Below are positions 1,389-60,754 of a stretch of 64,000 nucleotides of DNA, in pieces; the stretch's first letter is position 1, and every line of letters starts with the position of its first letter. A program made the translations under genes and the position numbers. The DNA is from Prevotella sp. (GTDB lineage Bacteria; Bacteroidota; Bacteroidia; Bacteroidales; Bacteroidaceae), in NCBI GenBank assembly GCA_022781445.1, contig JALETQ010000003.1, positions 25,698 through 89,697 of the forward strand, in the 5' to 3' direction. The notes beneath the pieces were generated by a model that did not search any database, was not told where the DNA came from, and worked only from the letters and a program-made list of their open reading frames with translations.

Positions 1389-1472
1389 CAAAACCTGCCC
1401 TTTTACAAGGCAGAAGTTCCCCTTTCGGTCGGTAAAAGTTCCCCTTTCAGCATGCAAAACCTGCCCTTTGGA
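1389..1472. repeat. 22-bp-register array (array A), units around AAAGTTCCCCTTT / AACCTGCCCTTT
   Basis: The C of each CTTT-type core lies at 1400, 1422, 1444 and 1466, exactly 22 bp apart. Confidence 0.8.
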
Positions 1473-1620: not shown

Positions 1621-1822
1621 TTGAACCCAAATCGGTCATGAGAGCGTTTGTTTATACATTTCATGTCGCTCATATCACTTTCCGGCCGGTTTCGTCTGCC
1701 GGCCGACATCTTGCCTGTCGTTTTGTCTTGCCGTAGCCCGCTACGCCTGCAACAAACCGACAAACCATCTGCCAACCATCAAAAGAAACCAACTCGGAAT
1801 CTAATGACCGATTTGGGTTGAA
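1621..1822 (+). repeat. Dispersed palindromic intergenic repeat (RPT1), long copy
   Basis: Terminal inverted repeats ttgaacccaaatcggtcat (1621-1639) and atgaccgatttgggttgaa (1804-1822), 1 mismatch in 19. Interior resembles the copies at 16.5, 13.9, 60.0 and 62.9 kb. Confidence 0.8.
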
Positions 1823-30123: not shown

Positions 30124-32649
30124 ATGAAAAAAAAAGCATTGTTCTTATTGTTCTTGCTCGTCGGATTGGTTTGGACGGAAAGCGTCCGGGCAACAGGCAA
30201 GATTACATTCAGGACCTCCAGAACCGCAGGCGAAAGTATTGAAATGAACCTGAAAGCGTTGGGCGACATCAAAATCGATGGTGTCAATGAACCCGGTAAA
30301 CAGGGATATGCCGGCTATACGCTTACATCGAGCGAAGTCGTCATTGAAGGTGACATCACGTTTTTTGCCTGCAATGACAACGATCTGACCGAACTTGATG
30401 TGTCGCAGTGTGCCACTCTCGACACGATGCAGGTCATTTTCAATTATCTGACATCACTCGATTTGAGTCAAAACAAAAAATTGAGAAAGGTTTTTTGCTA
30501 TGAAAACATGTTGGAAACGCTCACGCTCGGCAATCTTCCCGAACTGGGTGAGCTTTTGTGTCAGACAAACAAACTGAAGAACGTCAACCTTCTGGGGTTG
30601 CCGAAACTGAAGAAATGTTGGGTTTCGGAGAATCCGATCACAAACATCGATTTGTCGGCCAACAAGGAACTCGAAGAGTTTTTCTCCGATTTTTCGGGAC
30701 TGAAATCACTGAATATTTCGCAAAACACGAAGCTGAAAAGGCTCAATGTGGGCTATACCGACATTCAGGCATTGGATTTGAGTGCTTGTCCGGATCTCGA
30801 ATTGTTGTATTGTGGCGATCGCGGACGGATGAATGTCGATGTTTCCGTTTGTTCAAAACTCAAGGAATATGCTTTCTTCAAGAATCATTGCACGGAAGCA
30901 GACTTCTCGGGCAATCCCGATATCAGATACATCGAGTGCTACCAGAATGACTTTACTGCCGCCAAGATGAGCAAGCTCGTTTCATCGCTGCCTGCCCGTC
31001 AGCCGGCGGACAATGCCATGTTGGTGGTTATCAATACGGCTGATGAGTCTGAAAATAATGTATGTACCAAGGCGACTGTCAAGGCGGCACAGGGAAAAGG
31101 ATGGAAAGTCATGGACTATGCGAAGGGTGCCTACTCCGCATATGAAGGAAGCGAGGACAACGAGGAGCAGCCGGAAGGCAGCTATGTGAAAGTGAAAACC
31201 AGCAAACCGGCCGGTACCGAGTTGACGTTTTATGCCACCGCGCTGACACCGATAGAGGTGGTCGGGGCAGAAGTCGTGAAGTCGGTAGCCACGACGTTGA
31301 CTCTGAAAGTGGTACAACCGGAAATCATCATCAAAGGAGAAATGATGACTTTTGCCGCACAAAATGCAGGTATCACTGAAGCAGAGGTCGACAATAAAGT
31401 AATGTTGTCGCTTTGGCTCGACAATAACGAGATGACCAAACTTGATCTGCGCAATGCCGAAACCTTGTTGGTGCTCAACGTGGAGAAAAATAAACTCAAG
31501 TCACTCGACGTGTCTTCACTGGGCACTCTCGAGAAACTTGTCTGCGGGAACAACCTGATTGAAACGCTTGATCTGGCAAACAATGTGAATCTGCAAGGTG
31601 TCCAGTGTGAAAATAACAAATTGGGTACGCTCGACGTGTCGAAGAATCCGAACATCGGACTCATCAAATGTTACGGCAACAACATCGGCGTGGATGCAGC
31701 CAAGGCATTTTTTGAAGGTCTGCCCGAGTGCAAGAACTTCGTCGTCGAAGACCGGGGTGTGATTTGTTTCATCAACAAAGGCGATGCAAACGAAAAGAAC
31801 CGGGCGTGGAATCAGGATGTCCGGAAAGGTGTCGGCAAGAAATTCATGGTACTCGATTATGCCAACGGAGAATACGGCACTTACGGAAAAACTTATGAAG
31901 GCATGGATAATCCCGATGCTCTGAAACTCTATGTGGGTGGCGTGATGGTCACAGAAGACAATGCCGGTGACGTTCTCGGTGATGGCGGAAAGGTGGTTTA
32001 CGACATGGAGAACAAGGTTCTTACACTCAACAATGCGAATATTACCGCCATCGAAGGCAGTGCCGGTCTTGCCAACAGTAGTGTCGAAGGGCTGACCATC
32101 AGGCTTGTCGGCACCAATACCGTCAGCTCTCAAGGTAATTATGTGGGATTCGGTATGAGCAAAAAGACCACCATCACAGGTGACGGAAAGCTGATTCTTA
32201 ACGGCGGCAGTGCAGGAATCTATCTCAATAAGTCACAGCTTGTCATCGCTCATTGTACGGTTGAGGCCAACGGACAGGTGGGAATCGTGGGCTATGACGG
32301 TGCTTCGGGCGAGGAAATCACCGTCGATGATGCAACCCTGAAAGTAAATGGTGTCAAAGGGGCGGCATTCTTCCTCACCCGTTTCAACACCGTCGGCTGC
32401 CACTTCCCCGACAATGTCTATTTCAGCGAGCAAGAACGCGCTGTCGTTAATGCCGATGGAACTTTGTTTATGGGCGAATTTACCATCGTACCCGATGTGA
32501 ACGGTGTCGGGAAGACAGCTGTTTCGGATGTCGATGCGGGGCCGGTTGTTGTCTTCGGTCTCAATGGTTGCCGCCGGAATGAGTTGGGCCGTGGATTGAA
32601 TATTGTGAAATCAGCCGACGGAAAGACCCGAAAAGTTTTGGTGGAATAA
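30124..32649 (+). CDS. Secreted leucine-rich-repeat protein
   Basis: 841 aa; signal peptide; repeats LTSLDLSQNKKLRKVFCYENMLETLTL..., ITNIDLSANKELEEF, MTKLDLRNAETLLVLNVEKNKLKSLDVSS. Confidence 0.88.
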   Translation: MKKKALFLLFLLVGLVWTESVRATGKITFRTSRTAGESIEMNLKALGDIKIDGVNEPGKQGYAGYTLTSSEVVIEGDITFFACNDNDLTELDVSQCATLDTMQVIFNYLTSLDLSQNKKLRKVFCYENMLETLTLGNLPELGELLCQTNKLKNVNLLGLPKLKKCWVSENPITNIDLSANKELEEFFSDFSGLKSLNISQNTKLKRLNVGYTDIQALDLSACPDLELLYCGDRGRMNVDVSVCSKLKEYAFFKNHCTEADFSGNPDIRYIECYQNDFTAAKMSKLVSSLPARQPADNAMLVVINTADESENNVCTKATVKAAQGKGWKVMDYAKGAYSAYEGSEDNEEQPEGSYVKVKTSKPAGTELTFYATALTPIEVVGAEVVKSVATTLTLKVVQPEIIIKGEMMTFAAQNAGITEAEVDNKVMLSLWLDNNEMTKLDLRNAETLLVLNVEKNKLKSLDVSSLGTLEKLVCGNNLIETLDLANNVNLQGVQCENNKLGTLDVSKNPNIGLIKCYGNNIGVDAAKAFFEGLPECKNFVVEDRGVICFINKGDANEKNRAWNQDVRKGVGKKFMVLDYANGEYGTYGKTYEGMDNPDALKLYVGGVMVTEDNAGDVLGDGGKVVYDMENKVLTLNNANITAIEGSAGLANSSVEGLTIRLVGTNTVSSQGNYVGFGMSKKTTITGDGKLILNGGSAGIYLNKSQLVIAHCTVEANGQVGIVGYDGASGEEITVDDATLKVNGVKGAAFFLTRFNTVGCHFPDNVYFSEQERAVVNADGTLFMGEFTIVPDVNGVGKTAVSDVDAGPVVVFGLNGCRRNELGRGLNIVKSADGKTRKVLVE

Positions 32650-32814: not shown

Positions 32815-32930
32815 TCAAAAGGGTAGGTTTTGCAAGGCAAGAGTTCCTCTTTCACACGGCAAAAGGGGTACTTTCACGAGGCGAAAGTTCCCCTTTTACA
32901 GGCTGATTCATGTCCTTTTACAAAACAGGC
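32815..32930. repeat. 22-bp-register array (array B)
   Basis: Cores gagttcctcttt, aaaggggtacttt, aaagttcccctttt, atgtcctttt; CTTT-type C at 32849, 32871, 32893 and 32915. Confidence 0.8.
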
Positions 32931-33156
32931 GTGGCATGGTGACTCTTGATGGAGGGGGAAAGGTGTGCCGAAATCCCATAAAAAAGATGCGTCGGGTCGG
33001 GAATCGTGTTCCGTCGTCGACGCATCTTTGCGGTGAATGAAAGTGCTTGGGAGATATGGAAAGCGCGTTATTTCACCCGAAGCGGGTGGTGACAGGCAGT
33101 TGCCGTCGGACGATTGCTGTCGTCGAGTTGCTTTCGGATACCTTCAGAAGCCTTGA

Positions 33157-34149
33157 TCAGAGGTTCGGGTTGATTTTGTTCCATTCCGAAACGGGAGGAA
33201 CGATGTTGAGGGTAACCAACTCGTCGCGCATTTTGCAGAGGTGTTCGTAGCTCTGGTCGAGCTTGGCGTTCTCCTCGGGAGTGCCTTGCGGAACCTCAAA
33301 GTGTGCGCCGTCTTTGTCGAGCGTGGTCTTCATGGCCATCATGATGTGGTCGTACTTGTCGGTCTTGGCATAGGTTCCCACGGGGAAACGGAAAGCTTCA
33401 CCGCCCATGACCGCACGAATCATCTCAACAGAGAGGTAAGCGGGGCTTTGGAATGAAGAGCGACCGCGGAGCTTGATGATGGCGGCACCGCCTTGGGTAA
33501 CGTCCTTTTTCATCTGTTCCCATTCTTCTGCGGGGAATTCGGCAGTACCGATAATGTCGGTAAGTTTGCGTCCCTTGACGGTCACGTGGCTTCCGAAGAC
33601 AGCCATTTGTTCACCGTGTCCGCCGTAGGTGGCGCATCCTTCGATTTCGCTTTGCATGACATTGAACTTCTTGGCGAGGGCACTTTGGAGACGGGTGGTG
33701 TCAAGGCCGGCAAGTGTAGTAACCTGACCAGGTTTCAATCCGGAGTAAAGCAGGGTCACAAGTCCCGTCAGGTCGGCAGGATTGAATATGATAACCACAT
33801 GCTTGACATCGGGGCAATAGGTCTTGATGTTCTTGCCAAGGCTTTCGGCGATCTCGCAGTTGCCTTTCAACAAGTCTTCGCGGGTCATGCCATCCTTGCG
33901 CGGAGCACCGCCCGAAGAGATGATGTACTTGGCGTTGGTGAAGGCTTCTTTGACGTCGGTGGTGGCAGTGATTTTCACATCACCGAATCCGCTTTGGCGC
34001 ATTTCTTCTGCAACGCCCTCGGGAGAGAACACGTCGTAAAGGCAAATCTCGTTTGTAAGCCCCATCATGAGGGCTGTTTGTACCATGTTGGAGCCGATCA
34101 TTCCGGCTGCACCAACGATTGTCAGTTTCTCGTTTGTTATAAATGCCAT
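33157..34149 (-). CDS. mdh: Malate dehydrogenase
   Basis: LTIVGAAGMIGSNMVQTALMMGL, SSGGAPRKDGMTREDLLKGN, TYGGHGEQMAVFGSHV. Confidence 0.93.
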   Translation of the reverse strand: MAFITNEKLTIVGAAGMIGSNMVQTALMMGLTNEICLYDVFSPEGVAEEMRQSGFGDVKITATTDVKEAFTNAKYIISSGGAPRKDGMTREDLLKGNCEIAESLGKNIKTYCPDVKHVVIIFNPADLTGLVTLLYSGLKPGQVTTLAGLDTTRLQSALAKKFNVMQSEIEGCATYGGHGEQMAVFGSHVTVKGRKLTDIIGTAEFPAEEWEQMKKDVTQGGAAIIKLRGRSSFQSPAYLSVEMIRAVMGGEAFRFPVGTYAKTDKYDHIMMAMKTTLDKDGAHFEVPQGTPEENAKLDQSYEHLCKMRDELVTLNIVPPVSEWNKINPNL

Positions 34150-60096: not shown

Positions 60097-60164
60097 CCTT
60101 CGTCAATGATTTCTTTTGACACTGTGTTGTCGCTCATCAACAAACCAAACCAAGAATGTGCGCG

Positions 60165-60275
60165 CATAGAACCTGCCCTTTCGCCCTGTCAAAGGGCAAC
60201 TTTCATCCCTCAAAAGGGCCCGAATGACAACGCAAAACAGCCCCTTTTGAAAAGGCATTTGTCATGTTTTTGTAA
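60165..60275. repeat. 22-bp-register array (array C)
   Basis: Core C positions 60178, 60200, 60244 (60222 and 60266 degenerate); includes aaagggcaacttt and acagccccttttg. Confidence 0.7.
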
Positions 60276-60754
60276 GATTTTGTTTTTCAGGTTGTTACCG
60301 GTGACATGGAAAAGTTCTCTCGTTACTGCTTCGTTCCATCCCGATGGGGTATGATAGTCAGACCGCAAAGTGTCAGGCGCACGAGGGAACGTAAAACCAT
60401 CGTTGTCATGACCGGTTCGGGTTGCATCAGCAGAATTGTGCAAAAGACAGGCTTGTTGTTGCACGGACAGTGCAAAAAATGAAAGGTTGCATCGGTGATG
60501 ACACCGCCTTTTTTACTATCTTTGTCAGTATAAGACCGACCGATATGCAGGATTGGCAGTGAGAAGCGGTCGGGAAAGGTAAAAAGAACATGAATCATCG
60601 TTTGACGTTGTCGCCGTTCGTTCTCGGAAAAAACGTCCTTTCGTGTCACCCGATGATGTGAAAACATATAGTGGCACGCGATATAGCTACCACCATTTCG
60701 CTCAATTCATTCCCCCATCAACAAGGATAATATCACCATTCAAACCCATATAAC

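Follow-up and report, generated by a model that had tools for sequence, protein, structure and literature searches.

Intergenic rows of dyad words at a constant 22-bp pitch in Prevotella and other Bacteroidales

The BIME elements (RIB/RIP) of enterobacteria are built of alternating short palindromes that lie between genes, on their 3' side, sometimes with an IHF site. The matS sites, the SlmA and Noc sites and the iterons of plasmids are palindromic or phased sites for one protein, distributed chromosome-wide or arranged in tandem at about 22 bp. Among Bacteroidales, BrickBuilt of Porphyromonas gingivalis is a minisatellite MITE with 23-nt direct repeats, a leader and a tail, and inverted ends matching ISPg1/ISPg9 (PMC4596501). 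Direct repeats of the heptamer TAACTGA occur in Beggiatoaceae, Cyanobacteria and five Bacteroidetes, with about 170 mostly intergenic sets in one genome (PMC4679880). Finally, PINSR is a 188-bp intergenic non-coding repeat found in P. intermedia, where it has 177-184 copies, and in P. nigrescens; it was described as clade-specific, and the text of that paper gives neither its internal structure nor a function (Naito 2016, PMC4755523).

This report concerns three intergenic arrays in a 64-kb stretch of a 2.39-Mb Prevotella genome (G000; C57:25698-89697), referred to as the window, and the related arrays of other genomes. They are like BIMEs in having alternating palindromic units on the 3' side of genes, and unlike them in the strict 22-bp pitch, in the word that is replaced between species and in the fixed frame of four to five units. 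An origin as REP/BIME-type palindromes mobilised by RAYT (Y1 HUH) transposases would agree with the intergenic 3' location, the alternating orientation of the palindromes and the species-specific sequence; nevertheless, its probability is close to negligible, since the units are unlike the 20-40 bp GC-rich REP hairpins and a Y1_Tnp protein is absent from eight array-bearing genomes (G000, G012, G017, G396, G329, G131, G095, G231). In contrast to the arrays, matS, SlmA/Noc sites and iterons keep their sequence across related species and do not form 3'-biased rows of four to five. BrickBuilt is similar as a set of intergenic short tandem repeats within a larger element of a Bacteroidales genome; here, however, the units are 22-bp dyads in free orientation and there is no target duplication. 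The TAACTGA sets are also numerous, mostly intergenic and made of a short repeated word, but their unit is a direct non-palindromic 7-nt one and they are mostly found just upstream of start codons (PMC4679880).

The features of the window are as follows (no strand is assigned unless given).

1391..1469: array A, four 13-bp cores at 1391, 1413, 1435 and 1457, reading AAACCTGCCCTTT, GAAGTTCCCCTTT, AAAGTTCCCCTTT and AAACCTGCCCTTT.
32818..32918: array B, five cores at 32818, 32840, 32862, 32884 and 32906, reading AAAGGGTAGGTTT, AGAGTTCCTCTTT, AAAGGGGTACTTT, AAAGTTCCCCTTT and ATTCATGTCCTTT.
32980..33029: long inverted repeat AAAAAAGATGCGTCG...CGACGCATCTTT between array B and a malate dehydrogenase-like gene; likely a terminator separate from the array.
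60169..60269: array C, cores at 60169, 60191, 60213, 60235 and 60257, of which those at 60213 (AAAGGGCCCGAAT) and 60257 (ATTTGTCATGTTT) are degenerate.
60270..60299, plus strand: putative companion module after array C, TTGTAAG...GTTACC.

A preliminary description of this DNA had reported cores of the form AAAG-N5-CTTT in an exact 22-bp register, and all three arrays keep it. On re-reading, the C of CTTT stands at 1400, 1422, 1444 and 1466 in array A and at 32849, 32871, 32893 and 32915 in array B, and the cores of array C are present; to the four units given for array B a fifth has to be added, AAAGGGTAGGTTT at 32818, which had been missed. The orientation was said to flip between neighbours without loss of register; this is so in arrays B and C, whereas array A has a single orientation throughout, its inner words being unlike the outer ones. 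The exact AAAG-N5-CTTT frame is present in only some units of the window arrays, and the units at array ends are often AAACCTGCCCTTT or its reverse complement, which is one base off that frame. Array B occupies a convergent gap; on one side an ORF on the plus strand ends at 32649, and on the other lies the malate dehydrogenase-like ORF, at 33157-34149 on the minus strand. A CRISPR-like array was considered and rejected in view of the 9-bp spacers, the repeats that vary and flip, and the many dispersed loci.

When the 64 kb of the window are scanned for the register under relaxed conditions (three units, at most 5 mismatches of 24), period 22 occurs at exactly three places; the matches begin at 1391 and 32818 and, for array C, at 60147. 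Of the control periods (18-21 and 23-26) only 23 matched, once, and 60 dinucleotide-Markov shuffles of the window gave no array. Periodicity similar to that of the real DNA, which the preliminary description had named as a refuting outcome, did not appear in the shuffled control; an origin of the arrays from degraded coding or IS sequence was tested as well and is not what they proved to be. Identity at lag 22, computed free of any motif, recovers arrays A and B. Outside the window the pattern is the same: exact cores within 150 bp of each other in 290 kb of G000 are separated by 22 bp (12 times) or 44 bp (four times) and by no other distance, and in 400 kb of P. bivia the only further distances are 66 and 110, each seen in a single pair and each a multiple of 22. 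The whole G000 genome contains 12 tandem AAAG-N5-CTTT pairs versus none for the reversed pattern.

A three-unit scan with the AAAG pattern over one genome per GTDB species gave, among the matches listed, Bacteroidales only: Prevotella, Xylanibacter, Leyella, Marseilla, Bacteroides, Mediterranea and Bacteroidales MAGs; these loci were chosen by the AAAG pattern, and the genomes were sampled as stretches rather than whole. Tandem AAAG pairs number from 0 to 153 per genome within Prevotella, and the N5 between AAAG and CTTT is typical of the species: GTTAC/ATGAC in P. bivia, ATGCC/ACGCC in P. histicola, CTATG/GGCTG in G012 and TTGCC/CTGCC in G000. Since some Prevotella lack the AAAG frame, a frame-free test was used, i.e., identity at lag L over 66 bp with no motif, the thresholds having been set on the first genomes seen. 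Ten Prevotella genomes that had not been selected for arrays, 40 kb each, contain 19 lag-22 arrays in 8 of the 10, and the other lags yield on average 0.00-0.26 arrays per lag per genome. Lag-22 arrays were also found in G016 (4 in 100 kb), Prevotella oral taxon 299 (14 in 150 kb), Parabacteroides distasonis (4 in 100 kb) and Phocaeicola massiliensis (5 in 150 kb, of which 3 have a common TACGTCCTGC...GGGACG word). G005 has one in 168 kb, which is not above its other lags, and there are none in 300 kb of E. coli, Listeria, Acinetobacter and Bernardetia combined. The autocorrelation of intergenic DNA, proposed earlier as a check, accordingly prefers lag 22 in most Bacteroidales samples.

The words themselves are unrelated between genomes: GGGTAAT-N3-ATTACCC in G189, CGACTTAAGTCG in G429, CTTAGCTTTT in G434 and TGACGCA in G016. 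Their dyad symmetry is on average above the column-permuted control in every group tested, and a few genomes combine different word families; 40 kb of G358, for instance, contain several words. Most unselected Bacteroidales samples contain intergenic lag-22 arrays of genome-specific dyad words and almost none at other lags. We know of no other case of a pitch conserved without its word. A phage origin was rejected: in 71 viral contigs with a chance-like pair, lag 22 is not above lag 21. Two further kinds of 22-bp repeat were observed on the way. One is a near-perfect, minisatellite-like tandem repeat of GACATAAAGACATAAATGGGTT at 32163-32290 of a sampled stretch of G373, with the same period as the arrays. 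The other is a different array, TTGGAC-N6-GTCCAA, located 28-79 bp past stop codons in P. nigrescens (368275 and 431826; L296:18275, L242:31826) and kept between this species and G396 (C2:21457, C2:534152); one of its copies is carried by a conjugative transposon, where it follows traG.

In the P. intermedia/nigrescens clade a four-unit 22-bp array forms the core of a 190-bp intergenic element. A profile search found 102 copies in 800 kb of G396 (two chromosomes of this clade), and 82 of the 83 full-length ones are exactly 190 bp in spite of many variable columns, the exception being 22 bp shorter; its sister G017 has 46 copies in 348 kb, and a homologous element is present in P. nigrescens. 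Both G396 and G017 thus carry a high-copy intergenic non-coding repeat of about 188 bp, and the match in clade, length, copy number and location argues strongly that it is PINSR. The preliminary description knew of no named element that fits, which is not quite the case: a repeat matching PINSR has the array as its core and is, like PINSR, intergenic, non-coding and about 188 bp long (190 here), with about 180 copies in the same clade (PMC4755523). Relative to that description, the 22-bp array core, the boxes at fixed distances, the other words across Prevotella and the pitch in other Bacteroidales are differences. In the openly licensed literature we found only the PINSR paper on this repeat, and no description of a pitch that stays constant across Bacteroidales families while the word is particular to the species. 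What was already known is one published member (PINSR), tandem operators and BIME-like elements.

The full-length 188-190-bp frame is absent from G000, which gives array-part matches of 41-64 bp only, the best being array B (77% over 57 bp to the P. nigrescens element). Since these matches are only array-length, the window arrays are relatives of the PINSR core and not full copies. In P. histicola the row has five units; beyond it, at a constant interval, comes TTTGTAAC-N15-GTTACAAA, and TGTAA lies about 95 bp out. Most copies have a second TGTAA box about 30 bp away on the opposite side of the row. A strict search for the companion TTTGTAAC-TTGATAATCA-GTTACAAA in four genomes used too rigid a pattern. 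The module TTGATAATCA-N4-GTTA, at position 140-160 of the P. intermedia-type element and at +20 to +40 in P. histicola, may resemble an IHF/HU bend-site consensus, WATCAA-N4-TTR. The module after array C possibly resembles both the P. histicola companion and TTGATAA...GTTAT of the P. intermedia-type elements. On the left flank of several elements of G396 there is a further short repeat between genes, made of tandem copies of CTAGAANNTCTAG.

As to placement (gene calls are our own, except for records that carry annotation), none of the full-length copies in G396 overlaps a predicted gene; 37 of 83 lie in convergent gaps and 8 of 83 in divergent ones, against a background of 24% and 22%, respectively, among intergenic gaps of at least 200 bp. 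In G396 convergent gaps are enriched (p=0.006) and divergent gaps depleted (p=0.01). In co-directional gaps the lag-22 arrays are nearer to the upstream stop than to the downstream start (43/56 in G396, 21/24 in G017 and, with p=1.8e-10, 90/114 in others). Chromosomal positions are more even than random intergenic draws (CV 0.43 and 0.68; p=0.003 and 0.004), and all 34 arrays of four named Bacteroidales records are intergenic by our own ORF caller. Some arrays of P. distasonis and Phocaeicola occupy divergent gaps and are possibly ordinary local operators. To extend this to all arrays, as unrelated local operators with each regulator having tandem sites two helical turns apart, would accommodate the several words of such genomes as G358 and those P. 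distasonis arrays that stand just upstream of genes; we consider it very unlikely, because most genomes repeat one word at many unrelated stop-side loci.

The comparison of array position and unit number across relatives, which had been suggested, gave a divided answer: arrays are kept in place between sister species and change by whole units, and they are lost at deeper divergence. At each of the first five loci found to be syntenic between G396 and G017 the element is present with its orientation unchanged; the array mostly exceeds its flanks in conservation, and whole words are swapped at some loci. When the comparison is widened to 46 syntenic gene pairs, near relatives are seen to keep the array, and one uncultured Prevotellaceae pair (flanking proteins 62 and 94% identical) keeps an array whose words differ; within the same comparison, pairs with flanks about 60-75% identical have no array. 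Being missing at syntenic sites of distant species, the arrays are such that no single site is indispensable. Array B may have a counterpart in G377, as a degenerate array after the same gene, where it should be noted that ORF ends are uncertain at some loci.

The change by whole units, e.g., five units in P. nigrescens versus one in G396 at one locus, and the high copy number would be natural for a selfish or neutral repeat, MITE-like or minisatellite, that spreads and homogenises without a role for the host. The same can be said of one copy in G017 (C88, near 48419 of a sampled stretch), which lies within an insert of about 565 bp with inverted ends ACGTGAGTTCG/CGAACTCACGT and a 7-bp duplication TAGGAAC; the insert is absent from G396 and is a MITE-like carrier of the array element. 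We nevertheless find such an origin unlikely for the arrays in general. The 82 copies of the 190-bp element have neither a target-site duplication nor a sharp edge, and their ends are weakly inverted (TGTAAAGATAATT vs TGTAAATATTTTT, 10/13); the array is in place at the five sister loci and at most near-relative loci; its length is exact although the columns have diverged. Moreover, the pitch recurs with unrelated sequence in other genera, which is unlike any single repeat family, and the controls have no general preference for 22-bp repeats.

The preliminary description left two possibilities for the 22-bp pitch, a protein bound on one DNA face at two helical turns or a chain of small RNA hairpins. 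The latter, as tandem hairpins or as a bidirectional terminator or 3'-UTR stabiliser past stop codons, is suggested by the stop-side location and by the folding: arrays fold far better than dinucleotide shuffles (mean z from -2.5 to -7.3). At first this z-score and the word pattern of G396 led us to favour hairpins. In that genome units 2 and 3 never share a word (0/69 versus 26.8 expected), though each word is common at both places, unlike its sister G017, where they carry the same word in 13/27; in both, unit 1 is the reverse complement, or nearly so, of unit 2 or 3, and this relation has survived the word swaps between the sister species. However, when units are redealt among arrays, the folds are as stable as the real ones or more so (-46.3 vs -42.3 kcal/mol in P. 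histicola, -40.7 vs -35.2 in G396, -29.2 vs -26.6 in G000), so the strong folding is due to the dyad consensus. Paired stems would require compensating changes in the two arms, while symmetry as such is expected of dimer sites as well. Within five species taken singly there is no arm covariation at variable flank positions, apart from a weak signal in G000; the arms agree when many species are pooled because the word is symmetric in each of them. Compensation of the stem type is thus limited to the complementary word swaps of G396 and G017, and reverse-complement words within arrays are not enriched in most other species. In the 9-bp spacers of P. histicola, a purine after CTTTT and a pyrimidine before AAAAG are even anticorrelated (20% complementary versus 46% expected). 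Each of these spacers, in other words, tends to pair a GC-type side with an AT-type one. No T-tailed hairpin lies within array B, a search of the window with Rfam returned two tRNAs only and nothing at the arrays, and a pitch free of indels is not something that RNA requires. The redealing and the lack of covariation indicate that hairpins are not what is selected, and we regard the RNA-level element as rather improbable. Of the two possibilities, the protein is the better supported by the exact register, the free orientation, the symmetric dyad and the absence of arm covariation.

We presume, at roughly even odds, that each array consists of four to five operator-like sites in a row, bound by a symmetric protein, and serves as 3'-intergenic punctuation, the word tracking the protein. 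The symmetric site, the fixed helical pitch and the genome-shared word expected of a phased operator array of one protein are all found, and a symmetric consensus without arm covariation within species is as expected of independent half-sites. Each site would bind a sequence-specific, probably dimeric protein; for the AAAG-type unit the consensus is GYAAAAG-N5-CTTTTRC-N3, with 7-bp half-sites in alternating orientation about one helical turn apart and 22 bp (about 2.1 turns) per dimer. The bound dimers would then be aligned on one DNA face and able to touch their neighbours. In several species the row belongs to a larger element in which further boxes are phase-locked to it. These boxes, together with the post-gene place, the thinning in divergent gaps and the even spacing, suggest that the arrays punctuate the chromosome as BIME/RIP elements do. 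The bound row could mark a boundary of nucleoid or supercoiling domains, or, alternatively, act as a roadblock or insulator between neighbouring transcription units. The word may be replaced genome-wide as sites follow the changing specificity of the protein, with the pitch fixed by protein-protein contacts. Against operator rows it counts that a global DNA-binding protein does not usually have its whole word replaced from one species to the next, that some genomes have several word families and that arrays are absent at distant syntenic sites.

A bolder proposal, which we put forward tentatively and with some doubt, is that of a punctuation system common to Bacteroidales, in which each genome would carry anything from dozens to about two hundred rows of dimer sites. 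The 22-bp pitch, the stop-side placement and the unit number would be conserved across families, and the word would be replaced wholesale between species through a fast-evolving chromosome-wide protein that the sites follow in concert. The prediction is that the 22-bp rows are bound by a protein in which the residues that recognise the DNA change from species to species along with the word. To our knowledge, little is known about nucleoid organisation in Bacteroidales; such a protein, if it exists, would be a new handle on it. A member noted ten years ago as a lineage-specific repeat becomes one case of an order-wide architecture, and the arrays can be used as frame-free markers for intergenic annotation in Bacteroidales genomes.

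A second intergenic repeat of G000, AACCCAAATCGGTCAT, often occurs as inverted pairs about 70-180 bp apart. It has 48 matches in 290 kb versus 3 in shuffles, 13 of them within 400 bp of an array, and is probably a MITE. Its copies in the window are as follows.

1624-1639, plus strand: copy of AACCCAAATCGGTCAT.
1804-1819, minus strand: copy of AACCCAAATCGGTCAT.
16531/16626 and 60007/60078: further copies of AACCCAAATCGGTCAT.
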